DNA of 64,000 nt from positions 37,719,606 through 37,783,605 of the forward strand of contig NC_030387.2 of assembly GCF_001625215.2 (NCBI RefSeq), written 5' to 3'. How positions within the stretch are numbered: the first letter of the stretch is position 1; each line of letters starts with the position of its first letter. The DNA comes from Daucus carota subsp. sativus (Eukaryota > Streptophyta > Magnoliopsida > Apiales > Apiaceae). A program made the position numbers and the translations under genes. Below the pieces are notes generated by a model. That model searched no databases and was not told where the DNA came from. It was given only the letters and a program-made list of their open reading frames with translations. Below are positions 27,804 through 53,697 of the stretch, in pieces.

Positions 27804-28955
27804 CTACAACTCCTTTCTGTACCAGTAGACACCTTTAGTCTCGCCTTCATCTTTCTCAACATAAATGCACTCCTTCATTTCTCTGTACATGGCCTTAAGA
27901 ATCGGAGTCCCATCGTACTGATAGTAATCCCCAAGCACAGGCTTCATGGCTTCTGTTGCTTCGAGTCCATGGTAATGCGGGATCATGGAGAAAATGTGGT
28001 GACAAACATGAGCATTGCACACATTGTGGAACACCTTGTTCAAGATTCCGTAATCTCTGTCCACTGTGCACAGAGCTCCCCTCAACCAGTCCCATTCACT
28101 CGAATCGTAGTAAGGCACAGAAGGATGAGTGTGATTCAGGATTGTGATCAACGTGAACCATCCGTTAACAACTAGCAATGGACCTCCGTAGACAAAAAAC
28201 ACCCAGGCAAAGCCTTTAAGTAACACGAGACGGTAGAGTCCATAGATGACTGCAAGAATTGCAACATCAGAAACAATAATTTGCTTCCTTTCACGTTCGG
28301 TGTAAAGAGGGCTATGAGGATCATAATGGGAAGTCCACCTCTCGTACTTGTGCCCCGAAACATTGAACATAAGGTAAATAGGAAAGCCTATGAGAAGTGT
28401 GATCACCCACACAATTACGCGGCCTGGTGGATTATTGAGAATTTTGTAGTAATTCCTGATATTGGACCTGAATCTCGGGACATAAACCTCATCATTTTCA
28501 AGTGATTGGGTGTTGGCGTGGTGACGCCTGTGGCTAATCTTCCATGAGAAATACGGGACCAGGAGAGACGAATGCACAATTAGGCCAACAAGGTCATTCA
28601 CCCAGCCGTAGTTGCTAAACGCATCATGGTCACACTCATGGCCTACAACCCAAGCGCCAGTTAAAACGCAGCCCTGGACAGCAATGTAAGCCGCCCAGGC
28701 TAAGTAATTAACCGGACTCGGGAGATACTGGTCGATGTAATTAGTAGCCGCATAGTAGAGCGCATAGGCCATGATGAGATCTTGAATGAGATACCGAAAT
28801 GAAGTCACCAGGGATTTTTCGAAACAATGTGCAGGAATGGCCTTTTTGAGGTCACCTATTGTGAACGGTGGTTTCTCATGAGGCGCTCGTCGGAGCGCCT
28901 CAGTTTCGGTTTTTTTGACACTAGAGGGAGCGGACATACGCCCACCTGCGCCCAT
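27804..28955 (-). CDS. Divergent FAD2-like oleate desaturase / acetylenase family, single exon
   Basis: ER membrane di-iron enzyme of the plant FAD2 family, which desaturates or otherwise modifies oleoyl or linoleoyl chains on phosphatidylcholine. It is 383 residues, full family length, with an uninterrupted frame. Histidine box 2 is HRRHH (142-146) and box 3 is HVCHH (316-320). Box 1 reads HECDHD (106-111) instead of HECGHH, changing a ligand histidine to Asp. Other family words: DSSEWDWLRGAL, VDRDYGILNKVFHN, PVLGDYYQYDGTP. The end, YWYRKEL, resembles the aromatic ER-retrieval tail. HVCHHIFSMIPHYHGLEATE suits the divergent FAD2 group that includes Apiaceae acetylenase-like enzymes, so a polyacetylene role is possible but not shown. 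Start at ATG 28955, preceded by a TATA box. Confidence 0.9.
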   Translation of the reverse strand: MGAGGRMSAPSSVKKTETEALRRAPHEKPPFTIGDLKKAIPAHCFEKSLVTSFRYLIQDLIMAYALYYAATNYIDQYLPSPVNYLAWAAYIAVQGCVLTGAWVVGHECDHDAFSNYGWVNDLVGLIVHSSLLVPYFSWKISHRRHHANTQSLENDEVYVPRFRSNIRNYYKILNNPPGRVIVWVITLLIGFPIYLMFNVSGHKYERWTSHYDPHSPLYTERERKQIIVSDVAILAVIYGLYRLVLLKGFAWVFFVYGGPLLVVNGWFTLITILNHTHPSVPYYDSSEWDWLRGALCTVDRDYGILNKVFHNVCNAHVCHHIFSMIPHYHGLEATEAMKPVLGDYYQYDGTPILKAMYREMKECIYVEKDEGETKGVYWYRKEL

Positions 28956-29048
28956 TTTTTTCTCAAGAAGAATATGCAGAGATTGCTATTCTTCTGCTGT
29001 TTAGTGTTTACTCTTTGAATGGTTATGTTGCTGATATTTCAGCATGCA

Positions 29049-32508: not shown

Positions 32509-34104
32509 ATGGCTCCGAGAACAAAATCAAAACTGTCAACAACCAAGACAATCATATCGGCCCTCGGGACCGTGGCTGCCACAGCCATGGTAGCTCGAAG
32601 CTTAGCCCAGGATTACTTGCCCTCTGAGGTGAAAGACTACTTAAAATCCGGTCTCGAAAGCTTTTTAAGCCGATTCAACAATGAAGTGACCATGGTGATC
32701 AATGAGTACGAGGGCTATGAAAACAATGCAATCTACGAGGCTGCATTGGTCTATCTACAATCCAAAGTCTCTACGAGCGCTCGTCGTCTCAGAGTCAATA
32801 AGGCCGAGGAAGAACAGAGCTTCTCCCTCGGCATGGAGCATAACCAAGAGGTGATTGACACATTCAATGGTGCTCAATTTAAGTGGGCTTGGGTGCGCGA
32901 TTTGAGACACTCAACACAGTACAATTATCACCATGGTAAATCAGAGTATCGATATTTTGAGCTGAGTTTTCATTATAAACACAGAGAAGAAGCACTTGAA
33001 TTTTACTTGCCATTCGTGATGAAAGAGGCTAAAGAAAAGAAGCAAGCTAATAGGACTCTCAAGATATTTACTATTGACACGGAGGATGATACGTGGGAAT
33101 CAGTGAATCTTGATCATCCTTCCACTTTCGAGACTCTTGCAATGGATGTGGAGTTGAAGGAGGCGGTGATGAGGGATTTGGATATGTTTGTGAAGAGGAA
33201 AGAGAAGTATAAGAGGATCGGAAAGGCTTGGAAGAGAGGGTACTTGTTGTATGGACCACCAGGGACCGGGAAGTCTAGTTTGATTGCAGCAATGGCTAAT
33301 TATCTGAAGTTTAATGTTTATGATTTGGAGTTGACAGATTTGAAGTGTAACTCGGAGCTGAGGAAGCTGCTGATTGCAACTGAGAATCGGTCAATTTTGG
33401 TAGTGGAGGATATTGATTGCAGCATTCAGTTGCACGACAGGGTGAGCGGAGCTAAAGCAGTAAAGCCTAATGCAGAACAAAAATCTGATAAAGAAAAACA
33501 ATCCAGCAAGGTCAGTTTTTCGAACTAGAAAACTATGGTAGTACTCTGTGTTAATTTGATTGAACTAAGATTTGGAATATCTGGAAACGTTCGTGTGCAG
33601 GTGACATTGTCAGGTTTTCTGAATTTCATAGATGGATTATGGTCAAGTTGCGGAGATGAGAGAATCATAATATTTACAACGAATCACAAAGAGAAGCTGG
33701 ACCCTGCATTGCTACGTCCTGGGAGAATGGACATGCACATTCACATGTCTTATTGCACTCCATGTGGCTTCAGACTTCTAGCTCATAATTACCTTGAGGT
33801 TAAAGATCATAATCTTTTTGAAGAGATTGAGGACTTGATTCAAATTACAGAGGTGACTCCTGCTGAAGTAGCTGAACAACTACTAAAGAGTGATGATCCT
33901 GATGCCTCGCTTGCTAGCCTGATTAGTTTTCTTCACACAAAGAGAAAGGACAATGAAGAGGCAAAGGCCATGGACAAGAAAGCAACAGAGGAGGTTGCTG
34001 AATCAGTTTCACAGGAGGATGACGATGACAAAGAAGATGACAATGAAGAGGAAGATAAAGATGAAGATGAAGATGACGATGACCCAGGAGGTGATCAAAA
34101 TTGA
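32509..34104 (+). CDS. AAA-ATPase, BCS1 clade (ASD/HSR4/OM66-like), gene A1
   Basis: Membrane-anchored AAA-ATPase; Arabidopsis relatives sit in the mitochondrial outer membrane or ER and respond to stress and salicylate. Two exons, 32509-33510 and 33601-34104, give 501 residues. Residues about 14-32 (IISALGTVAATAMVARSLA) form the N-terminal membrane or targeting segment. The AAA-associated domain follows, including EYEGYENNAIYEAA. Walker A GPPGTGKSS starts at residue 249, Walker B is ILVVEDIDC, and the second exon has the sensor and arginine-finger region NHKEKLDPALLRPGRMD. The C-terminus is a highly acidic Asp/Glu tail of about 30 residues, unlike the other copies. No damage seen. First of the cluster; subtype A with A2 and A3. 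Confidence 0.9.
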
Positions 34105-35232: not shown

Positions 35233-36724
35233 ATGTCATCAACAACGGGATCCAACATTGCAATGGCCAAGACCATCGTATCCACCATTGGAACTATTGC
35301 TGCCACGGCTATGGTGGCACGTAGCATAGCCCGAGATTACGTGCCCCCTGAAATCCAGAATTACTTTTACCTCGGCCTCCACAACTTTTTCAGACGCTTC
35401 TCCAATCAACTCACTATGGTGATCAATGAGTATGATGGGATCGTCAGCAATGAAATCTATGATGCTGCGGTGGTCTACGTAGGATCAAAAGTATCTCCCA
35501 ACACGCGTCGTCTTAAAATCACTAAACCAAAACAAGAAAACAACATCTCACTCACCATGGAGCGTGATGAAAAGGTGATTGATACGTTCAATGGTGTCGA
35601 ATTCAAGTGGACTTGGGTGTGCCAACAAATGGAACAATCCAATACATACTACTATCGTAACCAGACGAGATCATTTCGATCTGAAGTCAAATTTTTCGAG
35701 CTCAATTTTCACAAAAAACACAAACAACAAGCTCTCAATTCATACTTGCTATTTGTTTTAAAAGAAGCTAAAAACAAGAAGCAAGAGGTCAAAACATTAA
35801 AGATATTCACTCTTCACTCGGAAGACCATTTTTCATCGTCGGATAGCTGGCAATCAGTTAGTCTTGATCATCCAGCAACATTCGAGACACTTGCGATGGA
35901 TGTAGACCTCAAGGAGACAGTGATGAAAGATTTAGAGAGGTTCGTGGCGCGGAAAGAGAAGTATAAGAAAGTCGGAAAGGCTTGGAAAAGAGGCTACTTA
36001 TTGTATGGACCGCCCGGGACAGGGAAATCTAGCCTAATTGCAGCCATGGCTAATTATTTAAAATTTGACATATATGATTTGGAGTTGACGGATTTGAGAC
36101 GTAACTCGGAGCTCAGGAAGCTACTGATTGCAACCGCGAACCGGTCCATTTTGGTGGTGGAGGATATCGATTGCAATATTGAGTTGCAAGACAGAGTGAG
36201 TGCAAAATCCGAAGACAAAAAGCCTCACCGCCGAGAAGAAAACAGGGTCAGTCTTTTCTATAGCTTTGTTATTCATATTCAGTTAATTAATCTTGTTAGT
36301 ATGTTTTTCGAAAGGTTTTGTAATTTTTGAAAAATGTACATGTGCAGGTCACGCTATCAGGTTTTCTGAATTTCATAGATGGACTATGGTCAAGTTGTGG
36401 AGACGAGAGGATCATAATATTTACGACGAATCACAAGGAGAAGCTGGACCCGGCTTTGTTACGCCCTGGTCGAATGGATATGCACATCCACATGTCGTAC
36501 TGCACTCCATGCCAGGGGCGGACCCAGGATTCTAAATCTACTGGGGCTGGAGTTTTAAAAAAAAAATTCACGAATTCAATGAAGAGATAAACAAGTAAAC
36601 TAACATATACATGTAAATCAAAGCCACAAAATTCAGCCATTTTATTGAATAATACAGTAACATATGTAAAAAGCAAGTAATAACATACTAGTTTCAACGA
36701 AAAACAAAAGAAAATTTACTCACA

Positions 36725-39245
36725 TCATTTGAGTTGTACCCGGCGATTCTTTTGAGCGTAAAATTCATCTATCACCTCATCCACATCAATGTTTTCAGCA
36801 TACTCCCTCTCAATGTTAATAAGCATAGAGTCTCTCAAATATTCTTCCTCCATTTTATTTCGAAGACCAGTCTTCATTAATTTCATAGCTGAAAAAACTC
36901 TTTCTGTAGTTGCTGTAGAAACAGGGAGTGTCAACACAAGACAAATCAACCTATAAATCAAACTGTAGTGCTCTGACTTTCCTGTATCAACCAGTCGTAC
37001 ACATAACTCGGAAAGAGTAGACAAATCCTGGAAGTTAGTATGAGTAACCACATCAATCTTGTAGTGATCAAGTTGGAGTTTAAGATGGTACATCTCTTGT
37101 TGTCCAAAATCAGCAGGATAAAAGGTAGTAACAAGTGTACAAATATTCTCGATGTCAAACAACCTGAAATTGTTCTTCGGTTCCAAAGATGTACTTAGTC
37201 TCAAAAGCTGCACAGCATCATCATTGAACCTGTAATGAAGCTCTTCCAACTGAAAATCAATTGCAGAATTAAATACATCATAATGATAATGATGCTCAAC
37301 GGATATATTATCTCTCTGTCTCACAGAACGAATACCATCCATATAACGAGCATTCATATCTGGTATGTCAATGTCATATTTTTCACACACCGACATGACA
37401 TAATCCAAAAGAATATCAAAACCTTCATCTCTCAAAGATTGTAACAATTCTTTTGTTGTTGCCACTAAATCCATGGCATTCAAAATATCAATTGATTTAC
37501 TTTGTAAGGCTCGACAAAGCAAATCTGTAATGCCCATGATCTTATGCATCAAATGTAACACAAATACAAAGTCAAATGATTTCAATGCCTTTAAAGAACC
37601 TCTGGCTTCTCCACGCATAGAGTTCGAAGAAGTACTACAATTATTAATACTTTCCAACACAATAATTATTGAACCAAACTTATCAATCAAGCTACAAACA
37701 CAATTAAAGTGAGAACTCCACCTTGTTGATCCTGGTCGTTGCAAATTCCCAATCTGATTAAGTCCCCGACCAGTCTCACGTTCTCCACTAGCCACAGATT
37801 TGTCAACCTCTATGCCATGTGCAATCTGTAACTCCAATAAGCGTTTAGAAGAACCAGTAACTATATTCACAACATTAGACAACATTGAAAAGAATTCCCA
37901 AATAGAATCTTGTTTCTCAGCAGCCCCAACCAATGCTAGTTGTAAACGATGAGCAAAACAATGTACGTAATAAGCATATGGACAATCTTTAAGAAACAAA
38001 GCTTGTAAACCATTAAATGCACCACGCATATTACTAGCACCATCGTATCCTTGACCTCTCATATTATGAATGCTTAAGTTATTCTGTGTGAGAACATCAG
38101 AGATTTCTTTCTTAAGAGTTGATGATGTTGTATCAGCCACATTAACAATATCAAAATAACGCTCCCGAATAACACCATGAACATCAACAAACCGAAGCAC
38201 AATAGCCATTTGTTCTTTATGTGATACATCTATGGCTTCATCAACTAAAATACAGAACTTAGAATCTCCCATCTCACCACGGATTTTATTTCTTACTTTA
38301 GAAGCAAGGATATGCAAAATATCTTTTTGCACTTTTGGAGAAGTATACATGCCATTTTTTGGTGCATTTTCCAAAACAACATTTGAGATATCAACACTTA
38401 GTCTACCAAAAACTTTAATCATCTCAATAAGATTACCTCTGTTACGAGAAGTTGATGATTCATCGTGACCCCGTAATGCACATGCTTGCAAAGTCAAGTA
38501 TCGAACAGCCTCTATAGTAGCTCTCAAACGCAGTCTATTCTTCTTTACCTCTTCCAAAGATTGACGATTTATGACCTTATCAATATGCCTTGTAACATTC
38601 TTCAACCCTTCAAGAGAATTCACTGCCTTTCTATGTGGGGAATTTAAGCCTCCAATATGTATCAACAAAGGACATCTCTCATTATCATTAACTCTTTTCC
38701 AGTTCCTGAATCCATCAATAGTAAATGTATGTTGTGCAGATGTATCACTTTCAAATAAATAGCACGGAAAACAGAATGCTGCATCTTTAGAAACTGAATA
38801 CTCTAGCCAAGGCCATGAGTTGAACCAAGATGCTTGAAATCGGCGACGTTGACTTTTATAATCAGTATGTGGATATTGATCTTTGTGTAGTTTAGGTTGA
38901 AATGCTCCCAGTCTAATGTATTCACGCCTAACGTCATCACGAACATTAGGTGGATACTTCCAAATTGGACAACGAAGACCTGGATCACGTTCAAGAGATG
39001 CAAGATCAATAGGATTAGTTGTAGCCGTATTAGTCGCAGTAGCCGGGCCAGGAGCAATAGGAGGAGCACTAGGAGTAGTTGTAGGAGGAGCACTAGGAGT
39101 AGCTGTAGGAGTGGCACTAGGAGTAGCTGTAAGGGGAGCACTAGGAGTAGCTGTAGGAGTGGCACTCGGAGTAGCTGTAGGAGTGGCACTAGGAGTAGCT
39201 GCAGAAAAATAGGATAACAACGTTTTCCTCTTTCGATCTTGACTC
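36725..39245 (-). CDS. hAT transposase (TTF zinc finger / DUF4371 type)
   Basis: Cut-and-paste transposase encoded by the element above. The open frame from the acceptor at 39246-39247 encodes about 839 residues ending at 36725. Domains in order: an unusual TPSATPTA-type repeat (39040-39215); TTF-type zinc finger region with RRFQASWFNSWPWLEYSVSK and AAFCFPCYLFES; DUF4371/RNase H-like core with ILVDEAIDVSHKEQ, RGQGYDGASNMRG and YVHCFAHRLQLALV; C-terminal hAT dimerisation region with LTLPVSTATTERVFSAMKLM. The frame upstream of 39246 has no ATG before a likely intron (acceptor ttgttgcag), so a short first exon probably lies nearer the right terminus; I could not place it. No internal stop. Confidence 0.88.
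39040..39215. repeat. Short tandem repeats coding Thr-Pro-Ser-Ala
   Basis: Units near 15-30 bases built on ggagtagctgtaggagtggc and variants, all in frame within the transposase, giving a TPSAT/TPSAP repeat of roughly 50 residues just before the zinc finger region. Confidence 0.85.
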
Positions 39246-40372
39246 CTGCAACAAGTCAAATTTAAATAACTTGAAAAATATTTATCAAACAATATTATAG
39301 AATATTATTATAATCACTTTCATTGATTACTACTCCGGCCAACGATTACTAGCACTAAGAGTTTGTGTGTTGAACCACTAAGATTATTAAATTTAATTTT
39401 CTCACATGGATTCTAGCCAAAAAATTTGAAATATTATATTAGTCCTACTTTTTGTTTCATGGGACTCACTGGCTAACACACGGCATAAAATATTGAAGTC
39501 TAGGTTTTAGGACAACCAAAGAACACCAAACAATCAATATTCTAATGATCCTGATTAAAACAAAACCTAGATTCTTTTGTCAATTTTTAATTAATTACTC
39601 AACATTGTTTTTCATACTTGATTATAATAAGAATTTAAAAAAGAAAAAGTTCAGAATTTTACATTGCAGTGAGCCGAGGCAGAGAGCTGAAGAGTCAAAT
39701 TCAAGAAAAATAATCACCGGATACCAAGCTTTTTGGGGGCTTAAATTAATTTTTTTTGTTCCCAGGCTCTCAATTCATACACACGTCGTGTATGTGTATT
39801 CTCTCTTTTGTTTTTTTTAATTGATTTGCAAAGCAGGGTCCAAAGCAATGTTTCGGCCCGATCTTTCATTCTGGCCCAATTTTGTTATTTAAATTTATGT
39901 GGGCTGAGCCTAAGCTAATATATATATATATAACTGGGCTGCTTATTTTTTCTACCTGGGCTAGATAATATTGGACTATAAAATGTTAAGAGGGTTACTG
40001 GACTTTGACCTGGGCTGGAGCCAACCCTAGCCCAGCCCATGGTCCGCCACTGCTCCATGCGGCTTCAGACTTCTGGCTGGCAATTATTTGGGAGTTGAGG
40101 ATCACAAGCTTTTTCGTGAGATTGAGGAGTTGATTCTGACTACAGAGGTGACTCCGGCCGAAGTGGCTGAGCATCTACTAAAGAGTGATGAGCCTGATGT
40201 CTCGCTTGCTGGATTAATCAGTTTTGTTCATACAAAGAGAAAGGAAAATGAAAAGGCCGAATTGGAGAATGCAACAGATAAGGTAGCAGAATCTGTTCCA
40301 GAGGCAGGTCAAGACGGCGAAAAACATGATCAGCACAAAGAAAATGGAGAGATTCAGAAGCCGCGAGTATAG

Positions 40373-41235: not shown

Positions 41236-42819
41236 ATGTCTTCAACTACAGAGTCCAAGATTGAAACCACCAAGGCAATCATCTCCACCATCGGAACAAT
41301 AGCTGCCACGGCTATGGTGGCACGTAGCATAGCCCGAGACTATGTCCCCCCTGAAGTTCAAGAGTACTTTTATCTCGGCCTCCAGAGGTTTTTCAGACGC
41401 TTCTCCAATCAACTCACGATGGTGATCAACGAGTATGAGGGCATCGAAAGCAATGAAATCTACGATGCTGCAGTGATCTACCTAGGATCCAAACTCTCCC
41501 CCAGCACACGCAGGCTAAAAGTTAATAAACCAGAGCACGAAAGCAGCATCTCTCTCGCGATGGAGCGTAATGAAGAGGTGGTGGATAAATTCAATGACGT
41601 TAAATTCACGTGGACTTGGATTTGCGAAAAATTACAACAAGCCGATTCATACTACAATCGTAACCAAATGAGGTCATCTAGATCAGAAGTCCGATATTTC
41701 GAGCTAAGTTTTCATTTTAAGCACAAGGAACTAGTTGTTAATTCTTACTTGCCATTCGTGTTAAAAAAGGCCGAAGAACAAAAACAAGAGACGAAAACTT
41801 TAAAGATTTTTACTATTGATTCGGAGGACAGCTATTCATTAGCTGATTCCTGGCAATCAGTTGGGCTTGATCATCCAGCGACTTTCGAGACGCTTGCAAT
41901 GGAAGAAAAATTGAAGGAGACTGTGATGAAAGATTTGGAGATGTTTGTGCAGAGGAGAGAAAAGTATAGAAAAATTGGGAAGGCGTGGAAAAGAGGGTAC
42001 TTGTTGTATGGACCTCCCGGGACTGGGAAATCTAGCTTAATTGCCGCGATGGCTAATTATTTGAAATTTGATATTTATGATTTGGAGTTGACGGATTTGA
42101 AGCGTAATTCAGAGCTCAGGAAGCTGTTGATTGCTACCGCGAATAGGTCCATTTTGGTTGTGGAGGATATTGATTGCAACATTGAGTTGCAAGAGCGGGT
42201 GAGTCCAGCTAAAGAAAAGAAGCCTGCAGACGAAGAATCTCACCGCGAAGAAGCAAGCAAGGTCAGTCATTTTTCAGGTTTTGTTTGTGTTAAATTAGAT
42301 TTTTATTATGAATTGTGGCCTTATGGGTGATTTTTTTTATATGTGCAGGTGACACTATCAGGTTTTCTGAATTTTATAGATGGATTATGGTCGAGTTGTG
42401 GAGACGAAAGGATCATAATATTTACGACGAATCACAAGGAGAAGCTAGACCCGGCATTGTTACGTCCTGGTAGAATGGACATGCACATTCACATGTCGTA
42501 TTGCACTCCATGCGGTTTCAGGCTTCTGGCCAGCAATTACTTGGGAGTTAAGGATCATAAACTCTTCGAAGAGATCGAGGAGTTAATTCGGACCATAGAG
42601 GTGACTCCAGCTGAAGTAGCTGAACAGCTGCTAAAGAGCGATGAACCTGATGTCTCACTTGCTGGCCTGATCAGTTTTCTTCATGCAAAGAGAAAGGAAA
42701 ATGAAGAGGCCAAGGCCAAGAAAGAAACAGAGGTGGCTGCATCAGTTGCAGAGGCAGAGGCAGTGGGAGATGGTGAAAAGAGCGATCAGAGTCAAGAATC
42801 TGACAAAAATCAGAAATAA
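41236..42819 (+). CDS. AAA-ATPase, BCS1 clade, gene A3
   Basis: Same family and architecture as A1 and A2. Exons 41236-42261 and 42349-42819 (gt-ag, phase 0) give 498 residues. Membrane segment about residues 14-33 (AIISTIGTIAATAMVARSIA); AAA-associated domain with LTMVINEYEGIESNEIYDAA; Walker A GPPGTGKSS at 259; Walker B ILVVEDIDC; exon 2 begins VTLSGFLNFIDGLWSSCGDE and carries LLRPGRMD. The tail is Lys/Glu/Ala-rich and ends SQESDKNQK. It looks intact, and is the closest relative of disrupted A2 and of the orphan C-terminal piece at 54034. Its TATA box and the poly(A) tract just before the ATG are the visible leader features. Confidence 0.92.
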
Positions 42820-52141: not shown

Positions 52142-53697
52142 ATGAGTTTAATTCCTCTGCCTTCTGCGGGAAGTGTTTATGCTGCATACGCGTCGATTTC
52201 ATCAGCAGTGATGCTTCTGAGGACTACTTACTACCAAATAGTCCCTCGTCAATTTCACGATTATGTTCTCTCTGCCGTCTCTCGCTACTTCCACCGCACT
52301 GTCCTTGAAGAAAACTCCTCATTCACTCTGATTGTCGAGAATTCTGATGGACCTCCTTGTCATAACTATCTGTTTAGTTCATTTGAAGTTTACATGTCCA
52401 CCAAAGCTTCTCCGACGACTAATTGTCTCAAGATCGCTAAGCTGAGCCAGAAAAGCAACGAGCTCACTACCAAATTAGCCCGAGCTGAAACCATGACTGA
52501 CATTCATAAAGGTGTTGAGATTGAGTGGAAATTCAATAGCAGCGATTCACAGGATAAAACTGATCGTAGGAAGAATCATTATTGGTTTGAGCTTCGTTTT
52601 GAAAAAGTACATAGGGAATTCGTTGTGAATTCGTACATACCATTTGTCATGAACGAAGCAACAGACATGCAAAATGCAAGGAAGGGTCTGAAGTTGTACA
52701 CTTATTCACACGACGTGTGGTCTCCGATTAATTTAGAGCATTCATCCACATTTGAGACACTGGCGATGGAGCCGGGTGAGAAGAAAGCTTTAATGGATGA
52801 TTTGGATTTGTTTGTGAAGAGGAGAGATTTTTTTAAGAGAGTATGAAGGGCTTGGAAGAGAGGCTACTTGTTATACGGGCCTCCAGGGACAGGCAAATCG
52901 AGTTTGGTTGCAGCCATAGCTAATTATCTCAAATTTGATATATATGATCTGCAGCTCTCGAATGTGAACAATGACTGGCAGTTCAGGAGATTGTTGCTGG
53001 GAACTGCAAACAGATCCATTCTTGTGATTGAAGATATTGATTGTAGTGCCAGCTTGCCTAACAGGAAGACTCAAACTCAAGCAAAGAATGGGAAATCCAA
53101 ATCTCCCAAGGTATTATTACCCAATTGCAAATTTGGGCTTCTAACTTGATAAAATAGTTTTCTAATTTATTTGCAGTAGTTAATATGTGGTGGATTCAGT
53201 TTTCACTCTCAGGACTACTGAATTTCATAGACGGGCTATGGTCGAGCTGTGGAGACGAGAGGATTATAATCTTCACAACCAATCACAAGGATAGACTTGA
53301 TCCAGCATTGTTGCGTCCAGGACGGATGGACATGCACATTCACATGTCTTATCTTACGATGAATGGTTTCAAAACATTAGCCTCCACCTATCTGGAAATC
53401 AATCACCAGCACTGGCGTTTCAGGGAGATAGAACAGCTATTAGGCAGCGTTGAAGCAACGCCTGCTGAAGTTGCTGAGGAACTAATGAGGACATGTGATG
53501 CTGATGCTTGTCTTGGAGGACTTGTCAATTTCCTCAAGGATAAGAAGAGGAAAAGGACTATTGTTGAATCCGGGGAGGATGCGAATCCTGGAGCTGAAAC
53601 CACGGATGGGGATGACACTACTCCTGGAGTTGAACTCATCCCAAAAGCCAAGAAAATTAAAACTAATGGCTTGCAGGATGTTTTTTGTCACAAGTGA
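52142..53697 (+). pseudogene. AAA-ATPase gene B2 with one nonsense codon
   Basis: Full-length subtype B gene: exons 52142-53110 and 53200-53697. The N-terminal segment is VYAAYASISSAVMLLRTTYY, Walker A GPPGTGKSS lies near 52880, Walker B is ILVIEDIDC, and exon 2 has FSLSGLLNFIDGLWSSCGDE and LLRPGRMDMHIHMSYLTM. The only visible defect is TGA at 52844-52846, where B1 has GGA in the ...VGRAWKRGYLL context just before Walker A. Everything after it remains open, so the loss is recent, or a base-call error, or the codon is polymorphic. As written, the product is 234 residues without an ATPase module. The intron acceptor is shifted relative to B1 (cag at 53197-53199). Confidence 0.85.

Follow-up and report, generated by a model that had tools for sequence, protein, structure and literature searches.

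We identified a 3,540-bp transposable element of the hAT superfamily (36513-40052) inside exon 2 of a carrot AAA-ATPase gene, within the window, the 64,000-nucleotide stretch of DNA at C7:37719606-37783605 that we analysed. Very probably, the explanation as a whole is a young insertion of a hAT element in one member of a tandem AAA-ATPase family. A hAT transposon with Tip100-like ends would have entered exon 2 of this gene by cut and paste, duplicating 8 bp and leaving the remainder of the host frame untouched; the host protein would thereby be shortened and its lid separated, with the paralogs as a possible backup, and the selected changes in the element would precede the insertion, with few neutral ones following it. 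Events of this kind are known, and the present one, a recent hAT insertion into one member of a tandem gene family, is a clean yet ordinary case. In the literature on carrot we found no paper describing the insertion or the element, as judged by title or the start of the abstract.

Anatomy of the insertion

The features of the insertion are as follows:

36505-36512, no strand: left copy of the target site duplication (TSD), CTCCATGC, from the sequence at the junction
36513-40052, minus strand (transposase): hAT element of 3,540 bp, from its ends and the stop points of genome matches
36513-36524, plus strand: left terminal inverted repeat (TIR), CAGGGGCGGACC, from the terminal sequence
40041-40052, minus strand: right TIR, CAGTGGCGGACC (reverse complement), identical to the left TIR at 11 of 12 positions
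40053-40060, no strand: right copy of the TSD, CTCCATGC, from the sequence at the junction

A preliminary description made from the sequence had claimed a hAT insertion with a perfect 8-bp duplication and matching ends, and all three points were borne out. The two TSD copies are identical, both ends carry the pattern CAGNGGCGGA, and the insertion is further supported by the transposase domains and by the junction searches. Without mismatch, this end pattern occurs in the window solely at the two element ends, and with up to one mismatch it has seven matches against 2.46 expected. For the junction searches, about 120 bases spanning each junction were queried against the genome. The right junction returned 18 matches (itself, two host paralogs, and 15 element ends) and the left junction 20 (itself, two host paralogs, and 17 element ends). 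On the right, both paralogs begin immediately past the element, at query base 54, and the element ends terminate at query bases 48-57; on the left, both paralogs finish at query base 59, and 13 of the 17 element ends begin at base 61, the first base of the element, with the other four beginning at bases 53, 57, 60, and 64. Element and host matches end on opposite sides of both junctions, which locates the junctions.

The 8-bp TSD is as expected for the hAT superfamily, and the 12-bp TIRs and the length of 3,540 bp agree with a published definition of hAT elements, namely short TIRs of 10-25 bp and a length of 2.5-5 kb (PMC3942097). Among the closest known systems is Tip100 of Ipomoea purpurea, a member of the Tip group of hAT elements, which has an 8-bp TSD, a single transposase of about 800 amino acids, and a length of about 3.5-3.8 kb (PMC12511174), figures that the carrot element shares. 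The ends were compared over their first 10 bases: both elements begin with CAGGGGCGGA, but the carrot ends go on with CC rather than G. The carrot element also differs in that its transposase requires a first exon.

The host gene and its tandem array

The host gene and two of its paralogs in the window are laid out as follows:

32509-34104, plus strand: tandem paralog P32, an open frame of 501 codons
35233-36246, plus strand: host AAA-ATPase exon 1 (AAA_assoc and AAA), from the domain search
36348-36512, plus strand: host exon 2, portion left of the insertion, from paralog comparison and frame
36588-36590, plus strand: first stop on reading host exon 2 into the element, preceded by 25 element-encoded residues
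40061-40372, plus strand: host exon 2, portion right of the insertion, with the lid (AAA_lid_At3g28540) and C-terminus, from the domain search
41236-42819, plus strand: tandem paralog P41, an open frame of 498 codons

The host matches the AAA_assoc (PF14363) and AAA core (PF00004) models to the left of the insertion and the At3g28540-like lid model (PF25568) to the right of it, and is therefore an At3g28540-type AAA-ATPase, differing from other proteins of this type in that a transposon breaks its frame ahead of the lid. As had been proposed, the exon is in frame on both sides and no other lesion is visible: with the TSD counted once, the gene has 496 codons and no stop. The splice donor GTCAGT was considered as a possible second lesion and rejected, as P32 and P41 have the identical donor. 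The dN/dS of the host is 0.18-0.27 against four paralogs, in one of which (PA) the start was placed by alignment at a non-ATG codon.

In the present sequence, the frame of exon 2 continues through 25 foreign residues to the stop at 36588-36590, so the predicted product would consist of 393 residues of its own and 25 from the element, instead of the normal 496, and would lack the lid domain. Because of this loss, the truncated protein is probably non-functional. The knock-out claimed in the preliminary description therefore stands insofar as the AAA-ATPase frame is cut before the lid; loss of function is what we infer from that. It is unlikely that the host escapes being knocked out, either because the element is spliced out of the transcript or because the truncated protein works. 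Splicing has a precedent in the hAT-like MITEs of carrot, reported to create splice variants (PMC8227079). The present insert, however, is 3.5 kb long; in 36441-36720, the only donor-like sites that a simple scan detected are those at 36595, 36613, and 36666, all of them past the stop, and a scan of 39951-40090 with two patterns found no acceptor-like site. As for a working truncated protein, the product would retain the AAA core up to RPGRMD, but the lid domain is encoded beyond the insertion.

The array to which the host belongs, which the preliminary description does not mention, includes four further copies in the window, starting at 32509, 41236, about 46400, and 52142, and at least three more beyond it, at 37.789-37.798 Mb of C7. 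Redundancy within this array may be the reason that the loss of one member is tolerated. The copy from 52142, the fifth of the array, has an in-frame TGA at 52844-52846, just before the Walker A motif, with the frame open on either side; going by its sequence, it is another damaged gene of the cluster besides the host.

Transposase frame and predicted exon structure

The coding part of the element, on the minus strand, has these features:

36725-39245, minus strand: main transposase exon with DUF4371 and Dimer_Tnp_hAT; 839 codons plus stop counted from 39244, base 39245 being part of a split codon
39246-39251, minus strand: TTGCAG, predicted to be the splice acceptor for the main exon, its AG conserved in four close copies and in four of the five more distant ones compared
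39406-39407, minus strand: possible end of exon 1, AT before GTGAGA, conserved in four close copies

The frame extends over 859 codons from stop to stop, and from the acceptor it has the 839 codons plus stop that match the previously claimed stop-free frame of about 840 codons. That claim needs one qualification, as the frame has no usable Met at its start: there is no Met in frame in the stretch upstream of DUF4371, and a first exon is therefore needed to supply the start codon. The four close copies all have the acceptor AG with GAGTCA after it, as do the more distant relatives L013, L014, L018, and L021; in L015, the last of the five distant relatives compared, the stretch covered has no acceptor AG. 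An unproven candidate for the start is an ATG assembled across the splice (AT/GTGAGA ... CAG/G), an arrangement that is kept in the four close copies. The relatives L062 (MASQ) and L065 (MSDQ) have a Met at the corresponding place or one residue before it. An alternative exon 1 beginning with MPCVS (39486) was dropped, as the three closest copies have AAG in place of its ATG.

Domain searches identified DUF4371 (Pfam E 2.2e-53) and the hAT dimerisation domain Dimer_Tnp_hAT (PF05699; E 1.5e-8, with a score of 34.7 bits where the cut-off is 21.4). Residues D335, D401, and E781 are invariant in all six aligned transposases of the same genome, and the motifs that hold them are presumably the hAT catalytic ones. 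The structure model of the transposase had a mean pLDDT of 48, which is too poor for a fold search. Matches to solved structures were limited to circumsporozoite protein and antibody chains, nearly all of them in the repeat-rich start of the protein, and were set aside. This start has a Pro/Ala/Thr-rich tandem repeat with a 12-base unit at 39002-39204, and the length of the repeat varies between copies. The element may still be autonomous.

Related copies in the carrot genome

In the genome, at least 44 matches were obtained with the leftmost 1,001 bases of the element and at least 30 with the rightmost 1,000, the window copy included; these counts are lower bounds on matches, and some copies yield several of them. 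Relatives with similar ends are thus present in the genome, and one outcome that the preliminary description had named as refuting it, that no other copies with similar ends exist, does not occur. Besides the window copy there are three near full-length copies, on C2, C8, and C4, all of which are broken. The C2 copy (L009) differs at 4.3% of aligned sites and has three stop changes and an 8-bp deletion; the C8 copy (L010) differs at 3.6% and has an extra 87-bp stretch as well as short indels in its coding part; and the C4 copy (L011) differs at 7.3% and has six stop changes. The frame stays open for at most 393 codons in C2, 192 in C4, and 583 in C8. The idea that the C8 copy is open throughout was refuted by this length and by its match being split across two frames. 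The near-identical copies for which a search had been suggested were not found: none of the copies detected was more than 99% identical, the closest full-length ones being those 3.6% and 4.3% away, so nothing points to a burst now under way.

When the 17 left-end and 15 right-end matches from the junction searches were paired, both ends stood in the correct order at 13 places: the full-length C2 and C4 copies and 11 shorter ones, which measure about 0.35-1.6 kb. The C8 copy has a deletion in its left end and is for this reason missing from the set. Distant transposases without a stop inside a long match were also found, at about 41-64% identity. Two of the short copies, L025 (C6, about 4.07 Mb) and L026 (C9, about 40.33 Mb), are non-autonomous, about 1.48 kb long, and have identical internal deletions; of 584 sites compared in the right part, 6 differ between them. 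The identical deletions are a sign that a deleted form was itself copied.

Age of the insertion

The insertion had been called recent in part because of its perfect duplication, but this feature says little about age. Of nine other copies with printed ends, six have perfect 8-bp TSDs (C2/L009, C8/L010, C4/L011, C5/L016, C9/L026, and C2/L034), two (L012 and L025) do not, and in L017 the right end was not located. Since the six include decayed copies, such as C4 with its six stop changes and C5/L016, which is about 82% identical over the left part, a perfect TSD is weak evidence of age. What does indicate an insertion that is recent in evolutionary terms is the pattern of private changes. In an alignment of four copies, the changes unique to each copy were classed as silent, replacement, or stop; 814 of 840 codons were kept (stop codon included), and those gapped in any of the four were excluded. 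The window copy has nine silent, four replacement, and no stop changes, whereas under neutral mutation 72% of changes would be replacements or stops (P=0.0024). The C8 copy (7 silent and 16 replacement, 70% replacement) and the C4 copy (26 silent, 73 replacement, and 6 stop, 75% replacement or stop) fit neutrality, and the C2 copy (17 silent, 19 replacement, and 3 stop, 56%) is intermediate (P=0.027). The window copy also differs from the other three pooled (Fisher P=0.0105), and its signal persists at P 0.0024-0.0071 under each of three settings of the alignment, whether the repeat-rich start is included or left out. As the broken C2 copy is also below the neutral replacement share, the pattern alone is no proof of a working copy. 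The excess of silent changes suggests that most private changes of the window copy were probably made while its ancestors were under selection as working elements. Three of its private replacements, at codons 38, 323, and 737, are at sites that are also variable among five distant relatives; the fourth, at codon 105, puts Val in place of an Ile common to all five, a point against the favoured reading.

The four replacement changes allow for no more than about 0.23% divergence after the insertion, the upper limit being 0.58%. The substitution rates used for dating are assumed values: at 7e-9 substitutions per site per year the age is about 0.3 million years (upper limit 0.8), and for rates of 1.3e-8 to 4e-9 it is 0.2-0.6 million years (upper limit 0.5-1.5). 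We therefore infer an age of well under about 1.5 million years. Splitting selected changes made before insertion from neutral ones made after it provides a way to date a single DNA transposon, which has no long terminal repeats.

The non-coding sequence fits this age less easily. The right non-coding part has changes found only in the window copy at 34 of 780 sites; the main coding stretch has 14 such changes in 2,462 sites, and the left end has 2 in 88. Part of the excess on the right is a misaligned CT run; the rest is not fully explained and needs earlier divergence or an exchanged segment. If all of these changes postdated the insertion, its age would be much greater, so a young age requires either selection on the coding part before insertion or such an exchange. 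In the upstream non-coding part (39463-40052), 57 of 585 sites differ from C2, against 21 of 628 between C2 and C8, and this stretch looks as if it had been swapped in from another lineage.

This private non-coding divergence, together with the distance of 3.6-4.3% at aligned sites to the nearest full-length copies, would suit an old insertion, in which the copy is long dead and fixed in the species and its frame is open by chance. We consider this very unlikely, as neutral divergence of 2% would be expected to bring about five disabling lesions, with a probability of about 0.007 of finding none (assuming one indel per ten substitutions). The silent-rich private changes are also unlike neutral decay, and the host, which would have been a pseudogene for equally long, is without another frame lesion. 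That the host retains the transposase as a domesticated gene, the insertion being tolerated on that account, is highly improbable: the open frame and the signature of purifying selection would agree with it, but the latter is accounted for by the period before insertion, the ends, TSD, and shorter non-coding relatives are typical of a mobile element, and the site is within the exon of another gene.

The hAT-like MITEs of carrot are also among the closest known systems. These are short and non-coding (PMC8227079), which sets them apart from the full-length window copy with its coding frame; they belong to the same superfamily and, presumably, to the same genome. It is conceivable, if rather doubtful, that the window copy is currently autonomous and mobilises the related short copies in carrot, and that the insertion is still polymorphic among carrots. 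If polymorphic, it would provide a naturally occurring loss-of-function allele for one ATPase of the tandem array, and the element would be a candidate for the autonomous source of hAT elements in carrot.

Elsewhere in the window, a long minus-strand frame at 27804-28985 resembles a FAD2-type desaturase, with histidine boxes recognised by eye.
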